Source: Alphaproteobacteria bacterium (lineage in GTDB: Bacteria; Pseudomonadota; Alphaproteobacteria; TMED109). From it: 64,000 bases of DNA. A program made the position numbers and the translations under genes. Of the stretch, positions 7-31,022 are shown piece after piece (positions within the stretch are counted from its first letter, which is position 1; each line of letters begins with the position of its first letter). The notes under the pieces are model-generated. The model was given only the letters and a program-made list of their open reading frames with translations. It was not told the DNA's origin and did not search any database. The stretch covers positions 124,001-188,000 of the forward strand of contig JAJDWH010000009.1 in the NCBI GenBank assembly GCA_022825705.1, given 5' to 3'.

Positions 7-780
7 ATGGCATCGGTCACGAGTTCTTCAAGCCTTATGGACGTGGCGGTGGAAGCACGACTAAAACGCCTTGATGCGGCGCATGAAGTGACGCTTGCAG
101 TTCCGTTGTTTGAACTTCCGCAGCGAGGACTGGAGCTGCTCCGTGACTTGCATGGCCGCCTCTCTGACCTGGCCCACCCCATCGCATCGCACGAGATGCA
201 TTTCTTCGGTGGTACTGCGTTGTCAGACGTGCGCGCGCAAATTCAGCTGTACGGCGGCAACGCGGAGGTCGAGGTCACGGTCGAAAAATGCAGTGTCCGT
301 TTCAACAATATGCCCGGGCTGGATCAAGTCCAACTGTTCAAAGATTGCGTTGAGACGGTATGGGAAAGCATCCTTGAGATTTTTCCGACCGCCAGCGCCG
401 CGTTGCTATCCATTCGCCCCACACTCCAAATGGAGTTGGCGGATGCAAGTAACGCCGGCAGGTACCTCACGCAAGTTGCCGGCTGGGGCAAGGAAGGGGC
501 GTGGGACAAGTTCGGGCGCGTAGCCGAGCACCCGGGCGTCAGTCTCGAGCTTGCGCACGCGGATGAAGGATGGAACGCAGTCTTCAATGTATTTCGTGAT
601 CGCACCTCCGAATCATCGCTTGTGCTGACGTGCGTTGCGATCTACATGATCCGAGACGAGAAAGACCCAAATGCGAGCGGTGCCATGATGGATCGCTTCA
701 CACACTTGGAAGGGCTGCTGGAGGCATTCGTTGACCAATGCGGGCTGGAGGCTGCTAAGGGTAGCGAGAGCAAGCCATGA
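7..780 (+). CDS. Hypothetical protein, first gene of a toxin-antitoxin-linked cluster
   Basis: I do not recognise this 257-residue protein. It has no signal peptide or membrane segment and reads as a soluble alpha/beta protein. Its last codons overlap the start of the next gene in an ATGA arrangement at 777-780, so the two are very probably co-translated. The genes downstream are a Xre/MbcA-type antitoxin and a RES-domain toxin, which makes this the first gene of a three-gene unit. A role as a third, modulating component is inference only. The ATG lies six bases from the window edge, so a start further upstream cannot be excluded. Confidence 0.7.
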   Translation: MASVTSSSSLMDVAVEARLKRLDAAHEVTLAVPLFELPQRGLELLRDLHGRLSDLAHPIASHEMHFFGGTALSDVRAQIQLYGGNAEVEVTVEKCSVRFNNMPGLDQVQLFKDCVETVWESILEIFPTASAALLSIRPTLQMELADASNAGRYLTQVAGWGKEGAWDKFGRVAEHPGVSLELAHADEGWNAVFNVFRDRTSESSLVLTCVAIYMIRDEKDPNASGAMMDRFTHLEGLLEAFVDQCGLEAAKGSESKP

Positions 781-1436
781 CACAGATGACACCGCTCAGT
801 CCCGACAACGTGCAACCTGCCTCAGAACCTTATGAATTGGCATCCCCCCGGAATCAGCCGATTGTCGGGCTCGGGGAGATCCCGGCCTACCAATTGCGAG
901 AGGCAATATCGTTTGAGTCCCTGTTTGCCGGTATTGAAGATGCGTACAAGGAAGACGAGAGCACCCGAATGGATGCCGCGGCGACCTCGAGGCAGCGGTT
1001 CATTGCAGTCTTGGTCGATCGCCAGCTTGAGGAACCCCGGGCTGAACGCCACTTCTCATTTACGATTTCTGACCGCCGGGGACAGCCGTCCGGCCCAATC
1101 AAGTTCTTCTTGCTTCTGCTCAAGACGTGGAAGCTCGAGCGCGGCGACGCGGCGACGCTGCTTGGTTTCGAACGTGCTGAACTGGGTCACGTAGATCGAC
1201 TACTCGAGGGGCATGCATTGCTCACCGGGCGAGACGTCAAGGATCGAATCGCCTACTTGTTCGAGGTCAGGAGAACCCTCGCGGGTCTATTCCGCAACGA
1301 GGACGTAGAGAACGCTTGGCTCAGGGAGCCGCATGCCGGCCTCGGCGAGCGGAGTCCGTTGAATCTGTTGCTGGAAGGCACAATGGAAAATCTTCTGGTC
1401 ATCAGGGACTATGTGCTGAACGCCGCGGGTAAGTGA
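777..1436 (+). CDS. Xre/MbcA/ParS-type antitoxin
   Basis: This 219-residue protein has a C-terminal segment (about residues 160-217) that matches the toxin-binding domain of MbcA/ParS/Xre antitoxins: a helix, then a W-L-x-x-P-H motif, then a G-x-x-S-P-L-x-L-L-x-G motif. In this family that domain caps the active site of the RES toxin, and the N-terminal half usually holds a helix-turn-helix. Here the middle part (residues 95-150) could form such a helical DNA-binding unit but is not a clear match. It starts inside the previous gene (ATGA) and ends one base before the toxin start. Autoregulation of the cluster is expected from family knowledge. Confidence 0.75.
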   Translation: MTQMTPLSPDNVQPASEPYELASPRNQPIVGLGEIPAYQLREAISFESLFAGIEDAYKEDESTRMDAAATSRQRFIAVLVDRQLEEPRAERHFSFTISDRRGQPSGPIKFFLLLLKTWKLERGDAATLLGFERAELGHVDRLLEGHALLTGRDVKDRIAYLFEVRRTLAGLFRNEDVENAWLREPHAGLGERSPLNLLLEGTMENLLVIRDYVLNAAGK

Positions 1437-1437
1437 A

Positions 1438-2076
1438 TTGTTAGCGTCCATCAGGACCGAACCGCTCGAACTGAAGTTGCACCGATGCGCCAGCCATCAG
1501 GGTGTCTCTGAATTCCTGGGTACGCTTGAGTTGGAGGACCAGGCGGTGGTCGAGATGATGGAGCTGCTGAACGAGCGCGGTATGGACGAATCGCTGGACC
1601 ATCTCTGCGACGGTCCGTTTAGGCAAAAGACGCGATTGCACGGAGACAAGGCCCGAGCTACCCGGTATTCGGACGGCACGTATCCAGTGTTCTACAGCTC
1701 GCTGGAAACTGAGACTGCCGAAGCAGAAATTCGACATTGGTTTCCCTCGGTCATTGGTCGGCCTCCGACCCCGAGAACGGCCTATTACGTATGCTTTTCC
1801 TGCGAATTTGAGGGCCAGACAAAAGACCTGCGCCCGAAGCTCCGCGACTGGGCGGACCTTGTTTCGGACGACTACGGGTTTTGCAATGGGTTGGGCCGAG
1901 AGGCCATGCAGCAGGAACTGGATGCCCTCTTAGCTCCATCGGCGCGCCGTTCAGAAGGCACCAACGTCCCGGTACTCCGAAGAAGCTCCATCCGTGACCC
2001 AATTGTTCTGGACACGGTCGCCGTGACGTACGATCCCACCACGCAGACTGTTGCGGTCTCGAGCGCCGCTCGGTGA
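1438..2076 (+). CDS. RES-domain toxin (NAD-degrading family)
   Basis: This 212-residue protein carries the RES-domain signature. Arg76 lies in a R-Y-S-D-G motif, Glu95/Glu97 follow a Y-S-S-L-E-T-E-T-A segment, and a Ser pair near 183-184 follows G-T-N-V-P-V-L. Characterised RES toxins (MbcT, ParT and related) consume or modify NAD+ or transfer ADP-ribose and arrest growth unless held by the cognate Xre antitoxin. The start is a TTG one base after the antitoxin stop, which implies translational coupling and modest expression. An insert at residues 35-65 makes the N-terminal half longer than in minimal RES proteins. Toxicity is inferred from the family and gene order. Confidence 0.75.
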   Translation: MLASIRTEPLELKLHRCASHQGVSEFLGTLELEDQAVVEMMELLNERGMDESLDHLCDGPFRQKTRLHGDKARATRYSDGTYPVFYSSLETETAEAEIRHWFPSVIGRPPTPRTAYYVCFSCEFEGQTKDLRPKLRDWADLVSDDYGFCNGLGREAMQQELDALLAPSARRSEGTNVPVLRRSSIRDPIVLDTVAVTYDPTTQTVAVSSAAR

Positions 2077-5216: not shown

Positions 5217-5448
5217 CGGTTTGGTCGGCCCCTGATGCGGATAGGGAACATGTGCAGGCGGGATCGCTCCATCGCCGCGACTATCGGTCGCGGCGCGCCC
5301 GTCAGAGGCGACTGCGGCATGGTGGTGCGCGAAGTGTGAAATATTTGCTTGCGCTCAGCCGAGGCACTCAGTGGGGGCAGGAAGCGATTCGTGTTTTAGG
5401 GACCAAGGATGAGGCACAGTGCGGATCTGTTGTCAGTAGGAGGCTTTG

Positions 5449-6258
5449 ATGCCAATTACATTGCGCGATGTCTGGGGCATAGATGACCCTGAGGACTACA
5501 AGGTCCATTTCGCCAGAAACAACGGAGACGTCGAACCGCTGGAGGTGTGGGCACGTAGCGCGGATGAGTGGCGCGGTTGGCAGGAATACCGGCCGAAGCG
5601 GAACGAATTCAATCGAGAGCGGATTTTCGCGCTCATGCAGTTCTACCACGAGACCGACGTATGGCTGTTCGGAGGCGTATTCCGCGTCGTCGAGCGTCGC
5701 CCCGACGCCTATCAGGTCGAATTGACGGACGAACTCGCAGGTTTCCAGGGGCGCCTGAAGCTGCGGACATCGTACCGCGGCAGGCACACGAGACCCAGAC
5801 TGGAAGCACAGTACGACCAATTCGAAGTTGCAGAAATCCTCAGGGAGCCGTACTCGGGAACTCCCTTCCCTGGACTCTCAAGCATCAACGTGTCATTCGA
5901 TGAGCTTGAGACGATCGTCAAGAACGAACGGTCGGAATGGAAAGCGGCGCTTGAACACGTAAGCGGCATCTACGTGGTTGCTGATACGCGGTTGGACCGA
6001 CTTTATGTCGGGGCCGCCTACGGGGAGGGAGGCGTGTGGTCACGCTGGTCGAACTACGTGAGTTCCGGAGATGCCGGCAACGTAGAGCTGCGCGAGGTGA
6101 TCGGCGGCGCGGGCTTGGATTACTGCCGTCGACACTTTCGACTGGCGCTGGTCGAGACATTGCTTGCAGCGGCGCCTGACGAGGCGATTGCGGCGCGAGA
6201 GACATATTGGAAGGAGGTGCTGCTATCCCGCGGGACACGGGGCCTCAACAGGAATTGA
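5449..6258 (+). CDS. GIY-YIG nuclease-family protein with unknown N-terminal domain
   Basis: The C-terminal half of this 269-residue protein shows the GIY-YIG pattern. G-I-Y is at 173-175, Y-V-G at 186-188 and Arg at 199, followed by an acidic helix with Glu251/Glu256 and a terminal G-L-N-R-N that fits the conserved Asn. These nucleases cut DNA using a Tyr/Arg/Glu/metal centre. The first 160 residues are a separate, mostly beta domain with several Trp residues and no recognised family, perhaps target recognition. An AGGAGG-like sequence at 5438-5443 is five bases from the ATG, so I prefer this start to the TTG one codon upstream. It lies beside a decayed DNA methyltransferase and converges on the ankyrin gene. 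Confidence 0.7.
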   Translation: MPITLRDVWGIDDPEDYKVHFARNNGDVEPLEVWARSADEWRGWQEYRPKRNEFNRERIFALMQFYHETDVWLFGGVFRVVERRPDAYQVELTDELAGFQGRLKLRTSYRGRHTRPRLEAQYDQFEVAEILREPYSGTPFPGLSSINVSFDELETIVKNERSEWKAALEHVSGIYVVADTRLDRLYVGAAYGEGGVWSRWSNYVSSGDAGNVELREVIGGAGLDYCRRHFRLALVETLLAAAPDEAIAARETYWKEVLLSRGTRGLNRN

Positions 6259-14098: not shown

Positions 14099-17000
14099 CT
14101 ACAGGCCGAGCCCGTCGTCGCGGCTGCGTTCTTTCACCTCCGGTTCGCGCTCCGGAGTGTGTGAGCCCGGTCCCGCGCGGTCGTCGGCAACATCCCTTTC
14201 GGCGCTACTTGCCGGCGGTGTCCCGCGTGAACGGCCGGCTTCCGCCGCCCGGCCGGACGCCTCCCGGGGCATTTCCCCGATGCCTTCGAGGGCGGCGATG
14301 CGCTCGCCGGTGACCGCCTGGAGCTGCGCTCGGAGCTCGGCCGCATCGTCGGTGACCAGTTCGGCGCGGTCCCGCGCGCGGCTGATCTCCACGTAGAAGC
14401 TCTTCTGCGTCGTCAGGTGCGGGTGCCTGGCCTCGATCGCGGCGATCACGTTGTCGACCGTGCGCCCCTGAAAAGCGTGCACGGTCGAGGCCCAGGCGTG
14501 GTCGAGATGCCGTAGCTGCGGGTCGCCCCTCCCCAATTCCAGCCGCCGCCCGTCCTCCAGGCGGAACGCGACGCGCCCGTTGCCAACCCTGAGCACCTCG
14601 GCGGTGCGGCTGTTGACCACGCCGAGGCCGTCGTGGTTCCGCGTCCAGCGGATGCGGTCACCGGCGCGGAGCTCGATCCCCTCCGAGCGGTACACCTCGG
14701 TGCCGCCCTTGAGGCCGCCGATCTGCGATGGCTTCCAGGCGACGGTCCCGCCCCTGCCGTCGCTGAGCAGCACCGCGCGGCGCCTGCCGTCGACGCCCAT
14801 TACGCGCCGCTCGTCACCCTTTTCGACGCCAATTCGCTTGTAAGGCCGGTAGAAGGCGACCACGTCCCCCTTCGCATAGTTGCCCGCGAGCGCCTTCTCG
14901 GCGTGTGTGTAGCCCTTCGAAACCAGCCGTTCGACCTGCGCAGCCGGCCCGTGGAGCCGTCCCTCGCGGGCGAGTTGGTCGCGGATATGGCCGTTGATCT
15001 TCAGGCGCAGCTCATGGCTCGGGGCCATCACCCCGGTCTTCTCCCGCGCCTCGGGCGCCAGCGCCAGCCAGCGTTCGGCCACGGCCGCCGCGATCCCGCC
15101 CCGCGGCACCGCGGCCACGTTGGCGCCGAGCTTGCCGAAGGCGCGGTCAATGTCGCCCTTGATGCTCGCCTCGACCGCTTCCTTCAGGGCCGGATCCCGC
15201 TGCCGCAGGATTTCGTCCATCGTCGCAGTCTGCATCCCGGCGGCCTGGAGCTGGGCGAAGGGTTTGCCCGCGTCGACCGCGTCGAGCTGCTTGGCGTCGC
15301 CCACCAGCACGACGCGCGGGATGCGGAGCTCGGCCGCGATCCGGAGCAGGTCGCGCGCCTGCACGGTGGAGGCGAGCGAACCCTCGTCGACGACCAAAAT
15401 TGTCTTCGCGTAGGCCCCTCGCAACTCGCGCGCCGCACGCCTCGTGAGGCGCCCCGCGCCAACGCCGGCGTTCCGGGCGAGGAACCCCTGCAGGGTCTGT
15501 GACTCGATGTTGGCCTCTGCAGCGAGCGTCTTCACCGCTGATGCGGAGGGCGCGAGGCCCATCATCCGCCAGCCCTTCCGCTCCGCGAGCATGCGCGCTC
15601 GGTCGAGCATGGTGGTCTTCCCGGACCCGGCATACCCCTGTACGCCCACCACCCGGTGCTTCGCCGACAGGATCAGCTTCACCGCCTCCTTCTGCCCGGC
15701 CGTGAGCGGTGACTTGTGGAGGCGATCCCGGACCACCCAGCCGCGCATCGGGGCCTGCCCGCGGCCCGCGCCGGCGCGCATCAGGGCGATGGTCTCGCGC
15801 TCCTCGCCAACCGTGCGGTCGGTCGCGAGCGAGTCTGCCGCCCCCAGCAGCGTCACCGCGTGCAGCGCTCCCGCCTTCTCCAGCCGCGCCACCTCGTATT
15901 CGACGGACTCGACGGCGTGCCTGCCCGGAGCATGGGCCAAGGCTGCAGCGAGCAGATCCGCCCGCGCAAACACGGCTTGGCGCTCCGACAGATGCGCCAT
16001 CGCCCAGGCCACCGCCCCACTCACCGTGCCGCGATCCTGCAGCGCCTCCTCCGGCCCCGCCGGAGCGGCTGCCCCGGCCAGCCCGTGCCCCTGTCGTTCG
16101 GCCGCGGGCAGCAGATCCAGCCGCGTGTCCCGCTCATTGCCCGCAGCCGCTGCTGCCCGCCCGTCATGCCGCCCGCGCTCATCTGCCGCCGGCGCCGGGT
16201 CAACAACCGGGTTCACCGCCGGCTCCGCCGTGGCTGGTTCCGGCGAGACAGCGACGCACGGCACGGTGTCCGGTACCCGGCTCCGCGATTCCCTCGCCTG
16301 CACGATGCAATGTGCAAGCGCACCGGCGACGAACCCGCCGACGTCGATTCCCAGGTCGGTAACCTGCCGCTGCCACACCTGGCGGAGCTCGTCGCGGTCG
16401 ACTTCCCGCTTGGTGGCGCGCGTCATTAGCGCGGCGCGCCCGGCATAGCGGGGATTGTCCGCCGTTTTGCCAAGTCCGCGCGCTGCCATCGCCGTCTCGA
16501 TCTCGGCGCGGCGGGTCGAGAACGCCTCGATCACCTCGCGCGAGACCCCCGCGAGCTCGAAGCGGCCGTCCGCATGCGTCTTCTCGATGTCGTACCCGAG
16601 CTTCGTCAGCCCGGCCGCCAGCTCGTTCCGGTAGATCGCGCCGAACAGCTTCTGACGCTCATAGAGCGTCTCGTTGGCCATCGTCCGCCACTTGCCGTCC
16701 TCGCCCTGGACCATGTTGGCGAGCACCGAATGCGTGTGGAGCTGCGGGTCCAAGGCGCGGGACGTGTCGTGCCTGAACGTCGCGACGACGGCCTTCTGGG
16801 CGCCGGCGCGCACTATGCGGCCGGTCTCGGGGTCCTGCATCCGGGTCCGGACGGCGTTCTTCTCGACCCAGGCGAGCGTCGCCTGCACCGCCCGGTCGTG
16901 CGCGCCGACGATGCGCTCGTCACCCCCCACGAGGGCCGCGATCGAGACGGACTTGGGCGCCGAGAACGTGAGGTCCCTGCCCGGGCGGTGCGTGATCTCG

Positions 17001-17236
17001 CCGTCCTTGCCGCGGCGGCCGAGCTCGGTCCCGGAGCCGTCCGGAACCTTGCCCTCCAGGATCGCCTTGAACGTTTCCGCGTCGACGGGCCCGGAGAGCC
17101 CCAGCGCCTCGGCCCCCTTCCCGAACCACGCGCTCGCGTCCCGGTGCTCGGGATCGTCCTTCGCGTAGTAGCCATCCTTCTCGTAGTAGCTCGCGCCCTG
17201 CGCGGCCGAGGCGATGGCGCCGATGGAGGCTACCAA
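14099..17236 (-). CDS. MobF-family conjugative relaxase/helicase (TrwC/TraI type)
   Basis: This 1045-residue protein has the TrwC relaxase domain at its N-terminus: paired tyrosines Y17-Y18 and Y23-Y24, then F-S-A-P-K-S-V-S at 91-98, then the three-histidine metal site in H156-D-T-S-R and H167-T-H169. A RecD-like helicase follows, with Walker A G-Y-A-G-S-G-K540-T-T and a V-V-D-E Walker B. A C-terminal T-V-H-A-F-Q-G-like motif completes the helicase. Such enzymes nick the transfer origin, stay bound to the 5' end and unwind the strand. The start is a TTG with GAGG eight bases upstream; it gives the standard M-V-A-S-I-type N-terminus. The linker at residues 330-400 is Ala/Pro-rich. Confidence 0.9.
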   Translation of the reverse strand: MVASIGAIASAAQGASYYEKDGYYAKDDPEHRDASAWFGKGAEALGLSGPVDAETFKAILEGKVPDGSGTELGRRGKDGEITHRPGRDLTFSAPKSVSIAALVGGDERIVGAHDRAVQATLAWVEKNAVRTRMQDPETGRIVRAGAQKAVVATFRHDTSRALDPQLHTHSVLANMVQGEDGKWRTMANETLYERQKLFGAIYRNELAAGLTKLGYDIEKTHADGRFELAGVSREVIEAFSTRRAEIETAMAARGLGKTADNPRYAGRAALMTRATKREVDRDELRQVWQRQVTDLGIDVGGFVAGALAHCIVQARESRSRVPDTVPCVAVSPEPATAEPAVNPVVDPAPAADERGRHDGRAAAAAGNERDTRLDLLPAAERQGHGLAGAAAPAGPEEALQDRGTVSGAVAWAMAHLSERQAVFARADLLAAALAHAPGRHAVESVEYEVARLEKAGALHAVTLLGAADSLATDRTVGEERETIALMRAGAGRGQAPMRGWVVRDRLHKSPLTAGQKEAVKLILSAKHRVVGVQGYAGSGKTTMLDRARMLAERKGWRMMGLAPSASAVKTLAAEANIESQTLQGFLARNAGVGAGRLTRRAARELRGAYAKTILVVDEGSLASTVQARDLLRIAAELRIPRVVLVGDAKQLDAVDAGKPFAQLQAAGMQTATMDEILRQRDPALKEAVEASIKGDIDRAFGKLGANVAAVPRGGIAAAVAERWLALAPEAREKTGVMAPSHELRLKINGHIRDQLAREGRLHGPAAQVERLVSKGYTHAEKALAGNYAKGDVVAFYRPYKRIGVEKGDERRVMGVDGRRRAVLLSDGRGGTVAWKPSQIGGLKGGTEVYRSEGIELRAGDRIRWTRNHDGLGVVNSRTAEVLRVGNGRVAFRLEDGRRLELGRGDPQLRHLDHAWASTVHAFQGRTVDNVIAAIEARHPHLTTQKSFYVEISRARDRAELVTDDAAELRAQLQAVTGERIAALEGIGEMPREASGRAAEAGRSRGTPPASSAERDVADDRAGPGSHTPEREPEVKERSRDDGLGL

Positions 17237-17391
17237 TGCGCGCGCCTCGGCCCGGTGCCGCTCCGGCGTGGCCGCAGGCCCGCCGGGGAAGTCAGAGGCC
17301 GCACCAGCTCAAACGGATACGGTCAGGGAATGCCGGGCCCGGGCGGGATGGCGTCGCGGCCCGCGCATGGCCCGTCCTGGACAGGTTCCGC

Positions 17392-17598
17392 TCAGGCGGC
17401 TGCCTTCCGACCCGTGGCCAGCGGACGTGACGCCAGCCATGCCTCGAGGTCGCTCTCCCGCCAGCGAACGGCGCGCTGCCCGAGCCGGCGCGGCAGCGGA
17501 AAGTCCTCCTCCCGCATCAGCCGGTAGATCGCCGAACGGCTCAGTCCGGTGCGTTCCTGTACCTCTTCACGACGCAGCATGCGGTCAATGGTCGACAC
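17392..17598 (-). CDS. alpA: AlpA-family excisionase-like regulator
   Basis: This 68-residue DNA-binding protein of the MerR-like winged-helix type contains L-R-R-E-E-V-Q-E-R-T-G-L-S-R-S-A-I-Y followed by R-L-M-R-E-E-D-F-P-x-P and R-W-R-E-S-D-L-E-A-W-L. AlpA-type proteins act as excisionases or activate integrase genes on P4-like and mobilizable elements. I place the start at the GTG at 17,598, because GGAGG lies nine bases upstream and it gives the usual length; the frame is open further upstream without support. It sits between the relaxase and an integrase remnant. Confidence 0.8.
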   Translation of the reverse strand: MSTIDRMLRREEVQERTGLSRSAIYRLMREEDFPLPRRLGQRAVRWRESDLEAWLASRPLATGRKAAA

Positions 17599-17754
17599 GT
17601 TCCCGTTCCTCCGGATTCCAATTGGCCCAGGAACGGTAAGCCGGGTAATAATGGTTGTCAAACAGTGTGTTATGGAGAGTGCTCGCGATATTATTTTAGC
17701 GCAAATCAGGTCCCTCAAACGTACCTCATGGCGACGCATGCCGATTTTTGTCGC

Positions 17755-17923
17755 CTATTTGCCGGACCGGTCCGCCGCGACGTACGCGGCCCATTCCTGC
17801 ATCAGCAACCGCCGCCGCACGAAGAGATCGGTCCGCCGGTAGGGGGCCTCCGCCCGGTCCGAATTGACATGCGCAAGCGCCAGCTCGCAGACGTCGCGCG
17901 GCGCGTCCGAACACTCCGCCGCT
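17755..17923 (-). pseudogene. C-terminal remnant of a tyrosine integrase (copy 1)
   Basis: About 55 codons match the end of the complete integrase at 29,589-30,770: A-A-E-C-S-D-A-P-R-D-V-C, L-A-L-A-H-V-N-S-D-R, then the active-site Tyr in A-P-Y-R-R-T-D-L-F and M-Q-E-W-A-A-Y-V-A. Upstream of A-A-E-C the similarity ends abruptly, and the H-x-x-R motif and everything before it are missing. It differs from the other two copies at several residues, so it is a relative rather than a fresh duplicate. Confidence 0.75.
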
Positions 17924-20028: not shown

Positions 20029-22191
20029 ATGACAAATGACACCCCCTCAGCACCTCTTCTTCCAGACAACCCTATCTCCTCTTCTGACCAAGATGTTCTT
20101 GAATGGACGTCGGTTTCTACCACTTTTGTTCGTCGGATTCTCGAAATAGACACCACTCATGGCCTTGTGGTCGGTGTATTCGGGTCCTGGGGATCGGGCA
20201 AGACCTCGTTTATCAACTTGGCGCGGACGGAGTTCGAACAGGCCGACGTTCCGATACTTGATTTCAATCCCTGGTTATTCAGCGGAGCGGATCAACTCTT
20301 GAATAGGTTCTTTTCCGAACTTTCCGCAGCAATGAGCAATACTCCCGGTCTCGGAGACCTCGGCAGGCATCTCAAGAGATATGGCGAAATCCTCTCTCCA
20401 GCGGTAGCGGCAATATCTACGCTCGTAGGTAGTCCTCTTTCCAATAAGACCTTGAGAACTATCCTGAAATCAATCTGCAACACAGCAGAAGCTCCTGCTA
20501 CCGCCGTTGATTTGCGCAAGAGGTTGACGGAGACGCTTGAGCGGCGTGAAAAGCCAATTGTTGTCGTGCTCGACGATGTCGACCGACTTTCGAAAGACGA
20601 AATCCGGGAACTCTTCAAGCTGGTACGCCTAACAGCCAACTTTCCAAACCTCATTTACATTGTTGCATGCGACAGGGTTCGCGTTGAAGAGGCGCTCGAT
20701 GACAGCGATTCTAGTGTTCCCGGCAACTATTTGGAAAAGATCTTTCAATGGTCCATCGACGTCCCCGTCGCCTCTCACGAACGCATTCGGCGAGAACTGC
20801 TTGGCAGCCTAGAGAGTGCTCTTTGCGGCATTCCTATGCCCTTCGACGAAAAGGACTGGCCCGACATCGAGGCTGAGGTCATACGACCGCTTGTACGGAA
20901 TATGCGAGATGTCCGGCGATACAGCATGGCCGTTCGCGGCATGAGCGACGACCTCCGTCAGTCAATCTCCCTTGTTGATACCCTGGCGCTGGAGGCGATT
21001 CGCCTGTTCATGCCGCGCTTCTTCGGGGAACTTCCGAACTTGATTGACGTTCTGACGGTCGCCCCTGCGTGGGAAAGCAACCGAGAGCGAATTGGCGATA
21101 TCATCTTTGAGCAGATGGGCGATACCCAGAAAGCCGCGGAACTGCGCCGGACGCGTCTGGAAGACGTACTCGAAAAGGTAGATGCTGGATTGAGACCGGT
21201 CGCCCGTGCGGTAATTCACCGGTTGTTCTTGGGTGGAGTCGAACACCACGACAACGATGATCCGGAATGGTCAATCCAACACCTCAGAAACAATCGGGTC
21301 GTGCACCGACTCATCTTCCGGCTCTACTTGACCCGCGTTGAAGATGGAGATCTGGCTTCTTCCAATAGCGCAAGGCTCGCTATTCGGAGTTTGCACGATC
21401 CTCGCGCTTTAGACGAACTAATACGTTCTCAGGATCCCGACACATGGCCAACGATCATTCTTTTCCTGTGGAACATGTTCAAGCGCGATTTTGAGACAAG
21501 ACATGCTGAACCCGCCCTGATTGTCTTTTGGAATTTGCTACCGGACATGCCGAGACAAAATCCCGGCGGCCTGGACGAACCAAGGTTGATCCTGCGCACG
21601 GTCTCTATTTCACTGCTGGAAACGCTTGTAGGAACTGATGGAGCCGTTCGCTCAATCAACACCATATTTCGCCAACTTCAATCCCTTACTTCGAAGGTGG
21701 CATTCATCACTCTGATTAAGGCATTCATCAGGGAGAATAGTTCGCTAATTTCAGATGCTGAACTGCACGAAATTGAGGATCGCCTGAACAATCAGATTCT
21801 GTCAATCAACGCCGATGACCTTTTAACGGAACGACACCCCGCACAAATCCTGTTGTTTTCCAGCGTGCTGGCTGATCCGCCCGGCGTTCCGCACATGATT
21901 CATGATTCTCCCAAACTGACCTTTGCTCTGCTGTTGGATTGCCTAACGGAAAGCAGCTCGAGCGAATTCGGGAGCCGATCAGCCGAAATGACCCATGGAA
22001 TTGACTGGGATGGCATGATCGCAATTCACCGTGATGAAGCAACGCTTAGAACAAGAATTAATAGTCTCGACCAGAGATTTTCCACCATCAAATCATGGGT
22101 CGACTCTGAGTTGGGGGTGCCATTTACGGATGCTCAGTGCATCCTGCAGCTTGCGAGAACCTACGCTGACGGCACGTTTAGCCAAGACTGA
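20029..22191 (+). CDS. KAP family P-loop NTPase
   Basis: This 720-residue protein has Walker A G-S-W-G-S-G-K-T (52-59), the KAP-typical F-N-P-W-L-F (79-84) and Walker B V-V-V-L-D-D-V-D-R-L (178-187). Next come a sensor-like Y-I-V-A-C-D segment (210-215), a M-R-D-V-R-R-Y helix and a long helical C-terminus. KAP NTPases are membrane-linked STAND-like ATPases; several occur in antiphage systems, for example QatA. The usual transmembrane insertion between the Walker motifs is short here (around 123-135). Codon and base use are visibly richer in A and T than in the neighbours, which suggests recent acquisition. No QatBCD-like partners are adjacent. Confidence 0.8.
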   Translation: MTNDTPSAPLLPDNPISSSDQDVLEWTSVSTTFVRRILEIDTTHGLVVGVFGSWGSGKTSFINLARTEFEQADVPILDFNPWLFSGADQLLNRFFSELSAAMSNTPGLGDLGRHLKRYGEILSPAVAAISTLVGSPLSNKTLRTILKSICNTAEAPATAVDLRKRLTETLERREKPIVVVLDDVDRLSKDEIRELFKLVRLTANFPNLIYIVACDRVRVEEALDDSDSSVPGNYLEKIFQWSIDVPVASHERIRRELLGSLESALCGIPMPFDEKDWPDIEAEVIRPLVRNMRDVRRYSMAVRGMSDDLRQSISLVDTLALEAIRLFMPRFFGELPNLIDVLTVAPAWESNRERIGDIIFEQMGDTQKAAELRRTRLEDVLEKVDAGLRPVARAVIHRLFLGGVEHHDNDDPEWSIQHLRNNRVVHRLIFRLYLTRVEDGDLASSNSARLAIRSLHDPRALDELIRSQDPDTWPTIILFLWNMFKRDFETRHAEPALIVFWNLLPDMPRQNPGGLDEPRLILRTVSISLLETLVGTDGAVRSINTIFRQLQSLTSKVAFITLIKAFIRENSSLISDAELHEIEDRLNNQILSINADDLLTERHPAQILLFSSVLADPPGVPHMIHDSPKLTFALLLDCLTESSSSEFGSRSAEMTHGIDWDGMIAIHRDEATLRTRINSLDQRFSTIKSWVDSELGVPFTDAQCILQLARTYADGTFSQD

Positions 22192-22538
22192 AGGTCGAAA
22201 AGCAAAAATGGGAGCAGGTTGTCATTCCCCTTTCCGGGCTTGACGGTAGTGGCCAGCCAATCAGTCGCCGCCGGAAGGCCAGATATATTCATGCACGTCT
22301 TCTGACGACGGTTGGCAGTGCGGGATCGACCACTTGACCTAGGCAGCGGCGCCGTTTCCCGACGACGCCCAGATGCTTGAACGGGTAGTGTCAACGGCGC
22401 GGGCGTTGGCATAGCGGATCGGGCGGCCTCCGGCGGGGGTGATCCGGCAGCGCGCGGCCGATCCGCTGAGTGCCTGAATCCCGTTCAATCCTCTACGCTG
22501 CAGCTTGTCCCCGTGCACCAATCGAGAAGGTCTGCCAG
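22192..22538. other. Stretch without a recognisable gene
   Basis: These 347 bases lie between the KAP and PD-(D/E)XK genes. The sequence changes from AT-rich (end of the KAP gene) to GC-rich at about 22,330, which may mark a junction between DNA of different origin. No hairpin-T-run terminator or gene was recognised. Confidence 0.45.
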
Positions 22539-23627
22539 ATGGTCGTCAGCCGCAAGCCGTTGTTGGCGAAGCTCGCGCCCATGTTCGGCTCGCAGACGGA
22601 GAATCTTGCCGTCGAGGCGCTTGGACACATCCTGTCAGAGTCGGAAGCCGCACGGCACGCACTTTCCCTCCTGCTGCAGAGCGGCGGCGCGGACGTGGGG
22701 CATATCGCCCAGATGCAGACCCAAGCCAGCAGCGATGACGGGGCGCGCCCGGACCTCGTCGGTCGCGACCGGGGCGGCCGGGAACGCGTGCTGATCGAGG
22801 CCAAATTCTGGGCTTCGCTCACCGAGAACCAGCCGAACGGCTATCTCCGCCGGCTTGCAGAATCGCGGGCGCGGAGTCCCTGCGCGTTGCTGTTCGTCGC
22901 CCCGGAAATGCGGATGGAGTCGCTCTGGGCGGAGCTGCGCCGGGAGGTGGCAACATCGGCATCCGGTCTCGCGCTCACCGATCCTGGCGGGGTAGAGGGA
23001 CTGCACGGCGCTCTTGTCGGCGAGGACCAGCATCTGATGCTGACCAGCTGGAGAAATCTGCTCAACCGCATGGCGACAGCTGCCAGCGGCGTGGCGGACT
23101 CCCACACGGAAACCGATATCCGGCAATTGCAGGGGCTCGCTGAACTGGAGGACGACGAAGTGTTTCTGCCGCTGGGCAGGGAGGAGATCGGGCCGCAGGT
23201 ACCCCGGCGCATCCGTGACCTTACGCGCCTGGTGGAAGACGCGATCAGCCGTGCGGCCGAGACCGAGTGGGCAAGCATCAAAGGCAGCAGGTTCGTCGGA
23301 ACCGCGATGAGTTACGGCATCTGGATGACGTTTCCGCAGGCGCAAGCGGCCATCCAGAATGCTGTTGCGTTTTTCGGTGTCGAGTACACCCTCTGGGCTC
23401 AATATCGAGACACCCCCCTTTGGCTCAAGTTCTCCGGCAGTTCCGCCTCGCCAGAGTTGCGTCAGGCGCTGGAGCCCCTTCGTCACGCGGACCCGCCCGG
23501 ATTGATTGGGGACGCGGGCGAAGACATGAACATCCCGATCGCATTACCGATCGGGCAGGAGTACAGCGCAGTCTGCGACGCTGTGGTCGCCCGCCTGGAG
23601 GAAATCGCGCAACAGATCGGGTCTTGA
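22539..23627 (+). CDS. PD-(D/E)XK nuclease-family protein
   Basis: In this 362-residue protein the nuclease core lies at residues 70-105: Asp72 in R-P-D-L-V-G, Glu87 and Lys89 in V-L-I-E-A-K-F-W, and Q98-P-N-G-Y102, an example of the Q-x-x-x-Y motif. A second part, roughly residues 200-360, is a separate domain with W-x-x-F-P-Q-A-like features that may recognise a target. The ATG at 22,539 is preceded by GAGAAGG at a spacing of eight bases, better than the open frame upstream. Located between a KAP NTPase and a STAND-nuclease, it is likely a defence gene. Whether it works alone is unknown. Confidence 0.65.
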   Translation: MVVSRKPLLAKLAPMFGSQTENLAVEALGHILSESEAARHALSLLLQSGGADVGHIAQMQTQASSDDGARPDLVGRDRGGRERVLIEAKFWASLTENQPNGYLRRLAESRARSPCALLFVAPEMRMESLWAELRREVATSASGLALTDPGGVEGLHGALVGEDQHLMLTSWRNLLNRMATAASGVADSHTETDIRQLQGLAELEDDEVFLPLGREEIGPQVPRRIRDLTRLVEDAISRAAETEWASIKGSRFVGTAMSYGIWMTFPQAQAAIQNAVAFFGVEYTLWAQYRDTPLWLKFSGSSASPELRQALEPLRHADPPGLIGDAGEDMNIPIALPIGQEYSAVCDAVVARLEEIAQQIGS

Positions 23628-23853: not shown

Positions 23854-24048
23854 TCAGGCCAGATAGGCGGCCCATTCCTGCATCAAGAACCGCCGCCGCT
23901 CGAAGAGGTCGGTCCGCCGGTAGCCGGCCTCCACCCGATCCGAATTGACATGCGCCAGCGCCAGTTCGCAGACGTCGCGCGGCGCGTCCGAACACTCCGC
24001 CGCCCAGTCGCGGAACGACGAGCGGAACCCGTGCGACACGGCGCCGAG
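23854..24048 (-). pseudogene. C-terminal remnant of a tyrosine integrase (copy 2)
   Basis: The frame matches the end of the intact integrase from G-A-V-S-H-G-F-R onwards. It retains the H-x-x-R motif, F-R-D-W-A-A-E-C-S-D-A-P, L-A-H-V-N-S-D-R and the Tyr in A-G-Y-R-R-T-D-L-F, ending early after W-A-A-Y-L-A. It is longer upstream than copy 1. At about 24,048 the integrase sequence is replaced, in frame, by lipoprotein-like sequence. Confidence 0.75.
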
Positions 24049-24550: not shown

Positions 24551-27500
24551 ATGATCGAACGAACATTTCAGGGCATTCCCAAGGGCAAACTCGCCGACGC
24601 TGATCAGCAGTCTTTCTTGGATAGCTTGGGCTGGTCAAGTGGAACAACATGGGAAGATCTACTGCGCTCAAAGCGAGTGCTGATGATTTCCGAGGCCGGC
24701 GCTGGCAAGACGTATGAATGCCGCGAACAGGCGCAGCAGCTGTGGGATGCCGGAGAACCCGCCTTCTTCGTTGAACTGACCGGCCTGGCGACAGGAGATT
24801 TGCGTAGTCTGCTGGACGACGATGAAGAAAGGCGGCTCAATGCTTGGCTTGCGTCTCAATCCGATGTCGCGACCTTCTTCCTGGACTCGATCGACGAACT
24901 CAAACTGACCCGCGGTTCGTTCGAGCAGGCTCTCAAGCACTTGAAGAGGGGCATTGGCAGTCAGCTCGGGCGGGCTCGGATCGTCATCACCTCGCGGCCG
25001 ATCCCATTTGACGAGGAGCTCGTGCGCCGTCTGCTGCCCGTCCCTCCGCCCCCTTTGGCGGGCACGCGTGAAGAGGCCTTCGCAAGAATCGCTATGGGCG
25101 ATCGCCCGGCTCCAGAAATCGAAGGCGAAAATGCCGGCGATGAGGAATGGCGAACGGTAGGGCTCATGCCGCTATCGAACGAGCAGGTTGTCGACTTCGC
25201 CAAGGGCCAGGGTGTCACGGATCCCGAGGCGCTAACGGACGACCTAGCAAGGCGAAATGCGGAGGAATTCGCGCGCCGTCCACAAGATCTAATTGAACTA
25301 TGTGCAGACTGGCGCGAGCAGAAGCGCATACGAACTCATCACGACCAAGTTGTGACAAATGTGCGCGTGAAGCTGCAGCCGCGGGACGACCGGGAGGAGC
25401 CAGCCGAGCTATCGGTCGACAAGGCGATCGAAGGCGCCAAGCGATTGGCGCTGGCAATGATGGTCACGCGCCGCATGACGATTCGGCACAGTGCGGCATC
25501 GGACGACATCGAAGACGAGGCTCCACTTGATCCGTCGATCATCCTGTCGGACTGGAGGCCGAATGAACGAAGGGCATTGCTCGAGCGGGCGCTGTTCGGC
25601 TTTGCCTCCTATGGCCGAGTGCGCTTTCACCATCGTTCGGTCGCCGAGTATCTCGCGGGGGAACGCCTTCAGGCGCTCAGCAAACGCGGAATGACCTTTC
25701 GCGCGCTCAAGCGGCTCGTCTTCGCAGAAACCAAAGGCAGGACAATTGTCCGTCCGTCAAGGCGCCCCATCGCCGGTTGGCTGGCACTCCACGAGGACGG
25801 AATATTCGAAATGCTGCGGGATTACGAGCCTGCCGTGCTTCTCGATGAAGGCGACCCGGAGTCGCTTTCCCTATCGCAACGCATCCAAGCGCTACGCGCC
25901 TACGTGGAGCGGCACGGTCAGGGCGGATGGCGCGGACTGAGCGTTCCACACATTCAGGTTCATCGTTTCGCTTCGCCCGAACTTGCAGACACCGTCACGG
26001 AGCTTTGGGCAAACGGTATCGAAAATCCCGATGTTCGGGAGATGCTTCTCCAACTCATTCGGGCCGGACGCATCAGTGATTGCGTCGATATCGCTTACGG
26101 GGTCGCGTGTGATGCGAATGCATCTCTGGTCGAGCGAATGATTGCGGTCGATGCGCTGGTGGCAATCAGGGATCCTCGACTTGAGGACATCGCGTCGCAA
26201 GTGGCGAACTTCGATCCTGCGTGGCCGGTGAAGGCTGTCCAGGGAGCCGTACTACGGCTGTTCCCCCGACATCTTTCGGTCCAGCAGCTTTGTCGGACAC
26301 TTAGAAGGATCAACGGAGAGAAACGCGGATCGGGTGATCTGACTTGGCAGTTAACCCGTCTAATTTCCGATGCTGAACTTGATCCACAAGACCTTGAAGC
26401 ACTTCGTGACGGTCTGGTCGATCTGCTTTCTGACGGGCTACGGTGGCAGGAAGATAGGTCGCACATCGTCAGCGACCGTGCCCATCTCAGCAGTGCGTTG
26501 GCCGCGACTTGCGTGCGTGGACTGGAGGGCAGCCGGGCTGATGATTGGCTGACGGCGAGCGCACTCGTACTGCGTCTTCATATAGACGAGCCCACAGAAA
26601 ACGACGTGCACAAGGCGCTTCGCGAGCGACTTTCAAACCTGGCACCCGAGGAGAATTCACGCTTCTTTTGGGCAGTCGATACCCTGGTTCAATCGCTCCA
26701 CAGCATTGCTGACCCTTGGATGCGCTTCGCGGAAATTACCATTCATGACGGACCCGTCGAACTTCGTGCGGAACGGGATCTGGGCTGGATCGAGGAAGCG
26801 ATTGGCGATACGGGCCGCTCCGCGAACGACCGGGCCATGCTGTTGGAGGCGGCGATGCGCCTGCCATTAGACCCCAAGCGACGGCGGGAGCATATATCGG
26901 GGCTGAAGGCGCTGGTCTCCGATCAACCAAGCCTGCTGGCGGCTATCGATGAGCGCCTGAAGCCGTCGAAGACTGAAAAAAAGATCCGTCGCTGGGAGAA
27001 GAAGCGAGCCGAACGGGAGAAGCAGAAAGAGCGCCGGCAGGCGAAGGACAGGGCAAAGTGGATTGAGTTCTGGCGGGAAGTGGCCGATCACCCTGAGATT
27101 GTCTTCTCCTCCAAGCGCAGCTGGAGCACGGCGTGGAATCTATGGAAGGCAATGAGTCACGAAGGGGACAACAGCCGAGCATCGGGGTGGAACCGGCGGT
27201 TCATCGAGGAACAGTTCGGAAAGGAGACTGCGGACAGGTTGCGGCGCACGTTGATGAACATTTGGCGGGAAGACCGTCCCACCCTCCCAGGTGAGAGGCC
27301 TGAAAACGAGCGCAGCACGTATCTGGTCCGCTGGCAACTCGGCCTCGCTGCACTTTACGCGGAGGCCGAGGATTCATCATGGGCCACCACACTCACTGAC
27401 GAACAAGCGAGGCTGGCAGCACGATACGCCTCCATCCAACTCAATGGGCTGCCCCTCTGGATGGAGAGCTTGGTCAATGCTCATCCAGAGGCGGTGGATG

Positions 27501-28879
27501 CTGTATTGGGCAACGAGTTGAGTTGGGAGCTGAGCGGGCAGCCGGGGTCGGACGGCCATTCCTTGCTTCTGCAGGACATCAACTACGCATCGGAGCCGGT
27601 CGCCAAGCTGTTTCTTCCCAGACTTCTCGACTGGCTGAACGTGAACGGAACAATTGTGGACGGCTCGTGCGATCAGGCTGGGGCGACCAAGCGCCTTCAG
27701 CAAGTAATCGGTACGATGCTGAAGCATGGTGACGACGACACGCGTGCCTACGCGAGAGACATGGCGTGTCAACGACTCCGTGAAGACCTTCCGAACGAAC
27801 TCGCGCTTGTCTGGTTGCTGACGCTCATGCGCGTCGATCCCGAACTCGGTGTATCCGCGCTGGAGGAGCGACTTCGAAGAATCGAGCCGGAAAAATTCAG
27901 CGAAGCCGTCAGATCTTTCGCCGTTCTATTCGGCGATCGTCATGATGGGATCAATCTGAAGACTTCGGCGTTCACGCCACGGCTACTCCTGCGGCTGCTC
28001 CGTCTAGCATACCGCCATGTGCGGCCCATCGACGACGCCCGGCACGAGGACGCCTACACGCCAGATATGCGCGATCACGCCGAATACGTACGAAACGCAA
28101 TCGTGAGCGCCTTGCTCGAGGCGAAAGGCGAAGACGGATGGGCAGCGAAGCTCGAAATGGCGAACGATCCACTCTGTGCACACTTCAAGGATCGGATTAT
28201 CGCGGTTGCCGAGGAGAATTGGGCGCAGGAGATCGATGGAGACGCGTTCGATCACGCGCAGGCCGTTGCACTGGACAAGACGGGCGAGGCGCCCGCTTCA
28301 ACGAACGAGGCAATGTTTGCAATCTTGCGCGATCGTCTAGAGGACCTTGATGAACTCCTGCTGCGAGACATGTCGCCAAGGGCCGCATGGGCCGGAATAG
28401 AGGATGAAAAGATAATGCGTCGCGAGATCGCGCGGGAACTGAACAATGCAGCCGACGGTCTCTACACGATTGACCAGGAAGCTGCCACGGCAGACGAAAA
28501 AGAAACGGACATTCGTCTGCGTTCAGTCGTGTCCAAGCACGAAGCGGTCATCGAGCTCAAGCGCGCCGACAACCGGTCCGGACGCGACTTGCGCGACACC
28601 ATCCGTGGTCAACTTGTCACCAAGTACATGGCGCCCGAGACCAGCAGGTCAGGATGCTTGTTGGTAACGCTGGCCAAGGATCGGAAATGGAGACACCCCG
28701 ACAGCGGAATTCTGGTCGATCGAAAAGGGCTGATATCACTTCTCCGTGAGGAGGCAATTCGCGTGGAGGAGTCGGTGGGCGGCGGCCTGTCACTTTGCAT
28801 CCATCTGCTCGATCTGTGTCCCCGCTTGCCGTTGGAGTCTACGGGCAAGAAGGACGGAAATGCTGCTCCCTCGACATAG
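24551..28879 (+). CDS. STAND/NACHT-like NTPase with C-terminal PD-(D/E)XK nuclease domain
   Basis: In this 1442-residue protein the P-loop domain is near the N-terminus: Walker A E-A-G-A-G-K53-T, Walker B T-F-F-L-D-S-I-D-E-L (108-117) and a sensor-like I-V-I-T-S-R-P (144-150). A winged-helix-like H-H-R-S-V-A-E-Y-L region (about 360-368) is typical of NACHT proteins. The middle is a long helical solenoid with a highly charged coiled-coil stretch around residues 805-835. The C-terminus carries a PD-(D/E)XK core: Asp1320, Glu1335-x-Lys1337 and Q1354-x-x-x-x-Y1359. In known Avs proteins the nuclease is N-terminal, so this order is reversed. The solenoid would sense an invader and the nuclease would act as effector; this is inference. 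A GIY-YIG gene follows 144 bases downstream. Confidence 0.75.
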   Translation: MIERTFQGIPKGKLADADQQSFLDSLGWSSGTTWEDLLRSKRVLMISEAGAGKTYECREQAQQLWDAGEPAFFVELTGLATGDLRSLLDDDEERRLNAWLASQSDVATFFLDSIDELKLTRGSFEQALKHLKRGIGSQLGRARIVITSRPIPFDEELVRRLLPVPPPPLAGTREEAFARIAMGDRPAPEIEGENAGDEEWRTVGLMPLSNEQVVDFAKGQGVTDPEALTDDLARRNAEEFARRPQDLIELCADWREQKRIRTHHDQVVTNVRVKLQPRDDREEPAELSVDKAIEGAKRLALAMMVTRRMTIRHSAASDDIEDEAPLDPSIILSDWRPNERRALLERALFGFASYGRVRFHHRSVAEYLAGERLQALSKRGMTFRALKRLVFAETKGRTIVRPSRRPIAGWLALHEDGIFEMLRDYEPAVLLDEGDPESLSLSQRIQALRAYVERHGQGGWRGLSVPHIQVHRFASPELADTVTELWANGIENPDVREMLLQLIRAGRISDCVDIAYGVACDANASLVERMIAVDALVAIRDPRLEDIASQVANFDPAWPVKAVQGAVLRLFPRHLSVQQLCRTLRRINGEKRGSGDLTWQLTRLISDAELDPQDLEALRDGLVDLLSDGLRWQEDRSHIVSDRAHLSSALAATCVRGLEGSRADDWLTASALVLRLHIDEPTENDVHKALRERLSNLAPEENSRFFWAVDTLVQSLHSIADPWMRFAEITIHDGPVELRAERDLGWIEEAIGDTGRSANDRAMLLEAAMRLPLDPKRRREHISGLKALVSDQPSLLAAIDERLKPSKTEKKIRRWEKKRAEREKQKERRQAKDRAKWIEFWREVADHPEIVFSSKRSWSTAWNLWKAMSHEGDNSRASGWNRRFIEEQFGKETADRLRRTLMNIWREDRPTLPGERPENERSTYLVRWQLGLAALYAEAEDSSWATTLTDEQARLAARYASIQLNGLPLWMESLVNAHPEAVDAVLGNELSWELSGQPGSDGHSLLLQDINYASEPVAKLFLPRLLDWLNVNGTIVDGSCDQAGATKRLQQVIGTMLKHGDDDTRAYARDMACQRLREDLPNELALVWLLTLMRVDPELGVSALEERLRRIEPEKFSEAVRSFAVLFGDRHDGINLKTSAFTPRLLLRLLRLAYRHVRPIDDARHEDAYTPDMRDHAEYVRNAIVSALLEAKGEDGWAAKLEMANDPLCAHFKDRIIAVAEENWAQEIDGDAFDHAQAVALDKTGEAPASTNEAMFAILRDRLEDLDELLLRDMSPRAAWAGIEDEKIMRREIARELNNAADGLYTIDQEAATADEKETDIRLRSVVSKHEAVIELKRADNRSGRDLRDTIRGQLVTKYMAPETSRSGCLLVTLAKDRKWRHPDSGILVDRKGLISLLREEAIRVEESVGGGLSLCIHLLDLCPRLPLESTGKKDGNAAPST

Positions 28880-29023
28880 GGCTCGTGACTGTTCGACTCG
28901 ACGACCCCAATGCGCCGAGCTCCACACCATCAAACCTGAACGAATCAGAACAAAGAACGAACGACTCATTCTTGTTGGCGATTGGTTTGAGTTGGTGTTC
29001 AACTACCTCGATTCATCTACCGC

Positions 29024-29497
29024 GTGACTTGGGACTACCTCAAAGAGGCCGCGAGAACACACGCGATACTGCTCGGAAGTGGAGAGGTTGGAATGGAGCC
29101 CGACGAGCCAGAAGCCGTAAAGGCATTGTTTGAAGAACTAATGCTGGAGCCACTCCAGACATTTCCGGGGCGGTACAAAAAGCTGGATGCGCCTGTCCAA
29201 CAGGGTGTCTACGTGATCTACGATCCACAGGAACAAGACGTCCTTCATGTCGGCCGTACGCCCCGCGCCAAAGGTGGGATTGCTCAACGCCTGCGTGGCC
29301 ACATGGGCCACAAGAACGGGAAAAGATCATTTTCGTCGTTTGTGAGAGGATACGAGCCTCTTGAGGGAGACGGCTCCAGGCTGCGGCGAGACAAATACAC
29401 TTTCAGGTGTCTGGTGGTCGAAAACCCCCGGCTGCGCGCCCTGTTGGAGGCGTATGCGACAGGTCATCTCTGCCCCGCTCACATCGGCACGGGCTGA
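29024..29497 (+). CDS. Small GIY-YIG nuclease-family protein
   Basis: This protein of about 157 residues carries a GIY-YIG core: G-V-Y at 61-63, H-V-G at 75-77 (the usual Tyr is His), R-L-R-G-H-M with Arg at 89-91, and Glu142 in L-L-E-A-Y. The final C-P-A-H replaces the common P-x-x-N. The GTG start at 29,024 has no ribosome binding site. An ATG at 29,093 has GGAGAGG five bases upstream and may be the true start, giving about 134 residues. It lies on the same strand as the STAND-nuclease gene and may be its partner. Confidence 0.65.
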   Translation: MTWDYLKEAARTHAILLGSGEVGMEPDEPEAVKALFEELMLEPLQTFPGRYKKLDAPVQQGVYVIYDPQEQDVLHVGRTPRAKGGIAQRLRGHMGHKNGKRSFSSFVRGYEPLEGDGSRLRRDKYTFRCLVVENPRLRALLEAYATGHLCPAHIGTG

Positions 29498-29588: not shown

Positions 29589-30770
29589 TCATCCTGTCAT
29601 GTTCTCCACGCTGGAGCGGTCCGCAGCAATGTACGCGGCCCATTCCTGCATGAGCAGCCGCCGCCGCTCGAAGAGGTCGGTCCGCCGGTAGGCGGCCTCC
29701 ACCCGATCCGAATTGACATGCGCCAGCGCCAGTTCGCAGACGTCGCGCGGCGCGTCCGAGCACTCCGCCGCCCAGTCGCGGAACGACGAGCGGAACCCGT
29801 GCGGCACGGCGCCGACTTTCAACTCCCGCAGGAGCTTCGACAAGGTGGAATCGCTCATCGGCCGGCCCCGGGCCGTCGGAAACACCAACCCCGACCCGCC
29901 CGTGTGCCCGCGCGCCTCCTCCAGGATCGCCACCGCCCGGTCCGGCAGCGGCACCCGGTGCTCCCGCTCTCCCTTCATGCGCCCCTTCGGGACGGTCCAG
30001 GTGCACGCCCCGAGGTCCATCTCGCTCCATTCCGCAAGGCGCACCTCGCCCGACCGTGCAGCAGTCAGGACGAGAAACTCGAACGCCGCCTTCGTCGCCC
30101 AGTGCGCCTGCGCGGAGCCCCGCACGGTGGCCACCGCCGCCCCGACCTCGCGGAACGCCAGTGCGCGATGGTGCACCTTCGGCTTGTTCCGCTTCGGGAG
30201 CGCCGCCCCGATGGCGTCGCCCGCAGGGTTGTCGGCACGGAACCCCTCCGCCACCGCCCACTGCATCACCGCGCTGATCCTCTGCCGGACCCGGCGCGCC
30301 GTCTCGTGCTTCTGCACCCAGATCGGCAGCAGCACCGCCATCACGTCCGCCGTCGTGATCGCGTTCACCGGCTTCTGTCCGAGCCGCTTCATCGCGTAGT
30401 CCCTGAGCGAGGCCCGCCACTGGCCCTCGCTCTTGCCCGCATCCTTCCAGGCCGCGCGGTGAATCGCGATGACCCGGTCGATTGCCGCCGCGAACGTCGG
30501 CGCCTCCCCCGTCCGCTTGAGCGCGCACGGGTCGCCGCCGGCCCGAGCCAGCCTGCGGTTGGCCATCGCCTGCTCGCGGGCTTCCGCAAGGCCGACCAAC
30601 GGATACCCGCCAAGGCCCAGCTGGCGGGCGCGCCCGTGCACGTCGAGGCGCTGCACCCACTGGCGCGTGCGCGCCGGCGTCACGCGCAGATTGAGCGTCG
30701 GACAGCCGCCGTCGCTGTAGAATCCCGGTGCGGCATTCCGGACGAATCGGTCGGTGAGATTGTGTGCCAT
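29589..30770 (-). CDS. Tyrosine recombinase/integrase
   Basis: This complete 393-residue integrase of the P4-like kind has an N-terminal arm-binding domain (D-G-G-C-P-T-L-N-L-R-V and L-G-L-G-G-Y-P). A core-binding domain follows, then the catalytic domain with Arg239 (T-A-A-R-S-G-E-V), His324-x-x-Arg327, His351 (A-L-A-H-V) and the nucleophile Tyr361. I chose the ATG at 30,770, which follows GGGA and begins the standard N-terminus; the frame is open another 31 codons upstream. An AT-rich region with nested inverted repeats lies directly upstream. Two remnants of close relatives occur at 17,755 and 23,854. No tRNA was found next to it. Confidence 0.9.
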   Translation of the reverse strand: MAHNLTDRFVRNAAPGFYSDGGCPTLNLRVTPARTRQWVQRLDVHGRARQLGLGGYPLVGLAEAREQAMANRRLARAGGDPCALKRTGEAPTFAAAIDRVIAIHRAAWKDAGKSEGQWRASLRDYAMKRLGQKPVNAITTADVMAVLLPIWVQKHETARRVRQRISAVMQWAVAEGFRADNPAGDAIGAALPKRNKPKVHHRALAFREVGAAVATVRGSAQAHWATKAAFEFLVLTAARSGEVRLAEWSEMDLGACTWTVPKGRMKGEREHRVPLPDRAVAILEEARGHTGGSGLVFPTARGRPMSDSTLSKLLRELKVGAVPHGFRSSFRDWAAECSDAPRDVCELALAHVNSDRVEAAYRRTDLFERRRLLMQEWAAYIAADRSSVENMTG

Positions 30771-30786
30771 TTCCCAGTCCCGTCGT

Positions 30787-30826
30787 TGTATATAACCCTG
30801 TACACAATTCACAGGGAGTATATACA
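30787..30826. promoter_or_regulatory. Nested inverted repeat upstream of the integrase
   Basis: TGTATATA (30,787-30,794) and TATATACA (30,819-30,826) form the outer arms, and CCCTGT (30,796-30,801) and ACAGGG (30,811-30,816) the inner arms, offset by a one-base bulge. It begins 16 bases upstream of the integrase ATG within an AT-rich stretch (30,780-30,960) that also has a GGAATACT/AGTATTTCC dyad at 30,879-30,904. It may be the integrase operator and promoter or part of the attachment site. Confidence 0.45.
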
Positions 30827-31022
30827 GATACATCCACAGATGCGACACGGATTTGGCAAGCACGGAAAGAACACTACAGGAATACTTCGGAAGACAGTAT
30901 TTCCGTATATTGCTGATTATAGACTACCTTATGGTATTCCTATGGCACGTCAAGGAACATAGTGGCACATTACGCTGGCGGGCGCCCCATCCGCCACCGC
31001 CCGAGCGGTTCCCTGCCAAGCA

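Follow-up and report, generated by a model that had tools for sequence, protein, structure and literature searches.

An intact HyoA-family NACHT protein with a predicted C-terminal nuclease, carried on a mobile tRNA-Ser island of an alphaproteobacterium

Results and discussion

The window analysed here is a stretch of 64,000 nucleotides from an alphaproteobacterium of the TMED109 lineage (GCA_022825705.1, a 3.49-Mb assembly of 55 contigs), corresponding to positions 124001-188000 of contig JAJDWH010000009.1 (C4); coordinates are those of the window unless a contig is named. An open reading frame on its forward strand (24551-28879), which begins with ATG and has no internal stops, encodes a protein of 1442 amino acids that is, by profile score, an intact member of the HyoA family. 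The protein combines an N-terminal NACHT NTPase with a predicted C-terminal PD-(D/E)XK nuclease, an order of domains that is inverted relative to the Avs and bNACHT proteins and that is a trait of the named family (HyoA and its sister EruA) rather than of this one locus. It is probably a stand-alone antiphage receptor, whose nuclease would halt the infected cell by cutting DNA.

Family membership and catalytic residues

The protein matches the NCBIfam equivalog model NF058534 ("NACHT domain-containing antiphage protein HyoA") with 1597.5 bits, against a curated cut-off of 1200 bits, and the match runs the full length of the model (residues 2-1425 against positions 1-1430 of 1430). The model for EruA (NF058535, cut-off 1000 bits) gives 136.5 bits over residues 198-1368, far too little for membership. 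An earlier note, made from the letters of the window, had taken the gene to belong to a system that it did not recognise among those described; because a named family has a model whose cut-off the score far exceeds, the protein does not appear to be of an undescribed kind. The same note had proposed a role in defence, which the antiphage label of the family makes likely. Pfam and PADLOC found nothing above noise in the protein, and a sequence search of the chains of solved structures, those of Avs4 included, gave no meaningful match. The PHROGs matched neither the hyoA product nor the GIY-YIG-like protein encoded downstream. Promoter-like and terminator-like sites near hyoA are no more numerous than in shuffled sequence. 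A literature search on the names HyoA and EruA returned nothing relevant, nor was the paper behind the NCBIfam labels found; an EruA named among the papers listed is an unrelated regulator of E. coli. Of the searches for C-terminal nucleases in NACHT defence, some returned no papers and others led to PMC12169576 and PMC13092281, discussed below; PMC13113432, in the part available, is not relevant.

Conservation was examined in two alignments, one of 27 proteins (the window protein and relatives, ten of them drawn from the 120 database proteins listed, but omitting L031, whose annotation splits it into two overlapping reading frames, and L009, whose gene is truncated by a contig end) and one of 121 rows (the window protein and all 120 listed database proteins, one of them the same protein, out of 1,266 found). 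The Walker A motif (residues 47-54, S-E-A-G-A-G-K53-T; 24689-24712, + strand) has K53 in all 27 proteins and in 120 of the 121 rows, the other being a gap, and the Walker B motif (residues 109-116, F-F-L-D112-S-I-D115-E116; 24875-24898, + strand) has D112, D115 and E116 in all 121. G50, G52, K53, D112, D115, E116 and the sensor-like arginine R149 are invariant in the 27.

At the C terminus, six residues encoded on the same strand do not vary among the 27 proteins: E1310 (codon 28478-28480), D1320 (28508-28510), E1335 (28553-28555), K1337 (28559-28561), Q1354 (28610-28612) and Y1359 (28625-28627). Their counts in the 121 rows are 120 for E1310 (one gap), 119 for D1320 (two gaps), 119 for E1335 (one serine, one gap), 120 for K1337 (one gap) and 119 each for Q1354 and Y1359 (two gaps). 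By motifs as well as by score, then, the protein belongs to HyoA, having both the NACHT NTPase residues and the C-terminal PD-(D/E)XK residues. The pattern E...D...E-x-K...Q...Y was also recognised by eye in all 19 rows of an alignment spanning HyoA to EruA. Six of these 19 proteins were compared with the NCBIfam models: L033 is over the HyoA cut-off, L025 (1113.7 bits) and L068 (1145.8 bits) are over that of EruA, L069 and L072 fall under the EruA cut-off, and L066 falls under the HyoA cut-off.

Predicted folds and the order of domains

The NACHT module occupies residues 1 to about 480 (24551-25990, + strand). An AlphaFold2 model of residues 1-545 (predicted local distance difference test, pLDDT, 82.4; predicted template modelling score, pTM, 0.65) has NLRC4, NLRP3, NOD2 and Avs4 among its best Foldseek/VIA matches and is NLR-like, so that the predicted fold agrees with the STAND/NACHT NTPase of Avs and bNACHT proteins. 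The module contains the sequence F359-H-H-R-S-x-x-E366-Y-L-A369, which we take to be like an NLR motif.

The C-terminal domain was modelled as residues 1236-1442 (28256-28876, + strand; mean pLDDT 85.9). Four helices precede a core of three strands, a helix, a strand, a helix and a strand, and the model resembles PD-(D/E)XK enzymes; Foldseek returned no match to it at E <= 0.001. The architecture that the note had described is confirmed: a P-loop NTPase at the N terminus, a PD-(D/E)XK core that includes D1320, E1335, K1337, Q1354 and Y1359, to which E1310 can now be added, and an order reversed with respect to Avs-type proteins. The two models together cover residues 1-545 and 1236-1442, and most of what the note called a helical solenoid lies between them.

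The P-loop begins at residue 47, and because only 46 residues precede it, with short elements alone in the model, there is no N-terminal effector of the kind that Avs and bNACHT proteins carry. In Avs4 the nuclease is N-terminal, whereas here it is C-terminal. According to the accessible part of PMC12169576, the sensor of bacterial NACHT proteins, like that of all STAND NTPases, is the C terminus and the effector the N terminus; bNACHT25 and bNACHT32 likewise join a NACHT module to a PD-(D/E)XK nuclease, but theirs is N-terminal and their sensor C-terminal. The available text of PMC13092281 similarly describes NACHT domains as typically activating an effector at the N terminus. Within its own family the protein is unexceptional: it matches the model over its whole length and agrees with the other aligned HyoA members in its NACHT motifs and in the nuclease residues of its C terminus; the sole difference found is the GIY-YIG neighbour of the window copy. 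EruA proteins are distant relatives, and although the 1442-residue protein lies far below their cut-off, L025 and L068 have the same NACHT motifs as it does and, at their C termini, the same E/D/ExK/Q/Y set.

Between the two conserved ends lies a variable region of residues about 481-1140 (25991-27970, + strand), delimited by the mean entropy per column in blocks of 60 residues over the 121 rows. Entropy is 0.41-0.69 in residues 241-480 and 0.63-0.78 in 1201-1380, as compared with 1.01-1.48 in 481-840 and 961-1140 and 0.82 in 841-960; variability is high as well in residues 181-240 (1.16) and in the final 60 (1.60). Because this variable middle sits between a conserved motor and a conserved nuclease, it is the probable sensor.

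Distribution and neighbourhoods of hyoA

Relatives of HyoA are numerous, with at least 1,266 at E <= 0.001 among 7,991 protein database candidates scored. Counting the window genome, proteins over the HyoA cut-off are encoded by nine of 385 genomes of the class and eight of 398 genomes of the phylum, and in 37 of the latter a match of some kind reaches E <= 0.001. Matches were also found in 65 of 72,556 plasmid records (20 of them covering 80% or more of the protein) and in two of 50,697 phage records, and HyoA patterns found none in viral_contigs. The window genome encodes a second HyoA protein (L033, contig C37 13262-17530; 1582 bits), which is 27-30% identical to the first in two alignable stretches and has no adjacent GIY-YIG gene.

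No conserved neighbour of hyoA was found: among 226 open reading frames of 70 or more codons within 5 kb of the gene in 23 loci, there is one related pair only, common to two loci. Because the greedy selection of reading frames missed even the GIY-YIG gene downstream of hyoA in the window, and because loci L037 and L038 stop just past hyoA, pairing with the GIY-YIG gene was judged by direct searches. Nine neighbours at other loci were compared with PADLOC models, of which three matched: OloA and OloB of Olokun in Vreelandella, and PDC-S06 in Rheinheimera. The six unmatched include a GMP synthase, a thiamine-pyrophosphate enzyme and a ParB-like protein.

Proposed mode of action

The computed results are family membership, the conserved residues, the predicted folds of both ends, the lack of room for an N-terminal effector, the lack of a conserved partner in the loci examined and the location in a tRNA island; that the protein senses phage, that it oligomerises, that its substrate is DNA and that the cell kills itself as a result are inferences. 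Recognition of a phage product would fall to the variable centre of the protein, and the predicted response is oligomerisation of the N-terminal NACHT NTPase; oligomerisation would turn on the predicted C-terminal nuclease, and the activated nuclease would cut DNA and halt the infected cell. HyoA and EruA may, more tentatively, form an inverted NLR-like class, with the motor first, the sensor in the middle and the nuclease last, and with a geometry of activation unlike that of Avs and bNACHT proteins.

Two other explanations of the protein were weighed. The protein could be an ATP-driven enzyme resembling a restriction system, in which the centre recognises foreign DNA and the NTPase powers or gates the nuclease, as in McrBC or the Type ISP enzyme LlaBIII; this is unlikely, given that the NTPase best matches NLR/NACHT folds, that the family is labelled NACHT, and that the loci share neither a methylase nor any other partner. 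Alternatively, the protein could be a NACHT ATPase with a role unrelated to phages, such as plasmid or island competition, or regulation, in keeping with the occurrence of hyoA copies on plasmids and in islands and with antiphage activity being a prediction; we consider this distinctly improbable, since NCBIfam names both HyoA and EruA antiphage, and since Olokun and PDC-S06 proteins neighbour two other hyoA loci. An antiphage receptor acting alone thus remains the preferred reading.

The GIY-YIG neighbour

The gene downstream of hyoA (29093-29497, + strand) encodes a GIY-YIG-like protein of 134 amino acids that is probably outside the system. The earlier note placed it on the same strand, 144 bases downstream. 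Starting from GTG 29024 the protein would have 157 residues, but the database protein of the same locus has 134, and 94 of the 120 relatives listed (out of 317 at E <= 0.001) have 121-137; these lengths make ATG 29093 the probable start, which would place the gene 213 bp from hyoA instead of 144. The Pfam GIY-YIG match of the window reading frame is below the cut-off (E 0.25) and the 134-residue form gives none at E <= 0.01, although some relatives carry a precomputed PF01541; G38-V-Y40, V53-G54, R66, H70 and E119 are invariant among 18 aligned members.

The search for conserved pairing that the earlier note had called for went against its two-nuclease interpretation. A GIY-YIG relative accompanies a HyoA relative in the window genome only, and in none of 26 other genomes or records. 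Of these 26, 13 are genomes whose protein exceeds the HyoA cut-off, four have scores short of it (553-1019 bits) and nine were found by tblastn only (five genomes and four plasmid records, with one gene cut by a contig end). A direct look at other hyoA loci likewise showed no GIY-YIG gene. GIY-YIG relatives are likewise absent from all 72,556 plasmid records, including the 65 with HyoA relatives, and from all 50,697 phage records; in viral_contigs, none of 31 pattern hits of the GIY-YIG alignment was confirmed. A single-sequence search of the 385 genomes of the class found the window genome and a weak match in G258 (31% identity over 73 residues, E 5.4e-4), and a family profile applied to the 398 genomes of the phylum found the window genome, G745 (E 3e-51) and a weak match in G505 (E 1.1e-4). 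The rejection could be softened by the weak partial matches in G258 and G505, neither of them a HyoA genome in the class and phylum searches, and by the genomic context having been covered for only a minority of the 317 relatives.

In G745, the one genome with a strong match beyond that of the window among the genomes sampled, there is no HyoA match. Its GIY-YIG gene (L094 2547-2942) separates paaD from paaE in an operon for phenylacetyl-CoA epoxidase, where PaaA, PaaC, PaaD and PaaE are each over their own NCBIfam cut-offs. Because it interrupts this operon, the small GIY-YIG family is suggested to move on its own, and its adjacency to hyoA is most simply the proximity of two pieces of cargo. 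That the two proteins act together as a two-nuclease system is therefore very improbable, despite their genes being on the same strand, 213 bp apart, and within one segment bounded by copies of an integrase 3' end. The earlier interpretation as a whole is partly supported. Elsewhere in the window, a 270-residue protein (5446-6258) has a GIY-YIG-like stretch recognisable by eye (GIYVV...LYVGAA) and no Pfam match.

The island and its cargo

The hyoA and GIY-YIG genes are cargo of a mobile island of about 41.4 kb (C4 113595-154996, ending at about window position 30996), which is inserted where a tRNA-Ser(GCU) gene ends. In two congeners with empty sites (G002 and G004), the chromosome is uninterrupted between window position 30983 and contig position 113594. 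At its right end the island has a 14-nucleotide direct repeat of the 3' end of tRNA-Ser (30983-30996), recognised from the overlap of the aligned flanks (14 nucleotides in one congener, 15 in the other) and from the tRNA-Ser(gct) predicted by ARAGORN; the left copy is beyond the window, at contig position 113581-113594. A tyrosine integrase (29589-30863, - strand; PF00589, PF22022, PF13356) is encoded at the right end, and the island also encodes a TrwC-type relaxase (14099-17236).

In G005, and twice in G006, the 3' end of the integrase gene joins directly onto a region like window 17000-17922, on the relaxase side. The window has two extra segments there, one with a KAP NTPase and a weakly nuclease-like protein and the other with hyoA and the GIY-YIG gene, both bounded by integrase 3' remnants of 162-184 nucleotides. 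A 184-nucleotide copy of the integrase 3' end (23864-24047, - strand; 96% identical to the intact copy) forms the left edge of the hyoA segment, and a 162-nucleotide copy (17761-17922, - strand; 91%) that of the KAP segment. Five such remnants were found in two genomes at 85% identity or more, four of them edged at integrase nucleotide 1093/1094 with similar adjoining sequence. The region of the integrase 3' end looks like a hot spot for the exchange of defence gene cargo.

The earlier note had set the gene in an island with a KAP NTPase and another nuclease-like protein. The P-loop NTPase (20029-22191, + strand) is well matched by the KAP family (PF07693, 148.6 bits) and by the PADLOC PifA model (183.6 bits); for its neighbour (22470-23627) there is only a weak PDDEXK_4 match (E 0.16). 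These two genes are possibly a separate defence unit. Two other loci of the genome may be mentioned. A 1155-residue Dsr1-type SIR2 protein (PADLOC, 1380 bits) is encoded at C4 275238-278705 (L112 6239-9706), and two further integrase 3' remnants of the genome are about 0.4 kb from it. Genes with Xre_MbcA_ParS_C and RES domains (window 777-2076) are a probable toxin-antitoxin pair.

Conclusions

HyoA and EruA depart from the rule of the N-terminal effector, as given in the available parts of PMC12169576 and PMC13092281, and do so in a large group of at least 1,266 relatives. As the search for pairing came out negative, the GIY-YIG neighbour can be set aside, and no spurious two-component system need be proposed. 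The window copy, which retains its catalytic residues and lacks a conserved partner, would allow the switching of an inverted receptor to be studied cleanly with one gene. If the two families do form an inverted class, ligand binding could gate the nuclease directly, because the sensor sits between motor and effector, rather than solely through N-terminal clustering.
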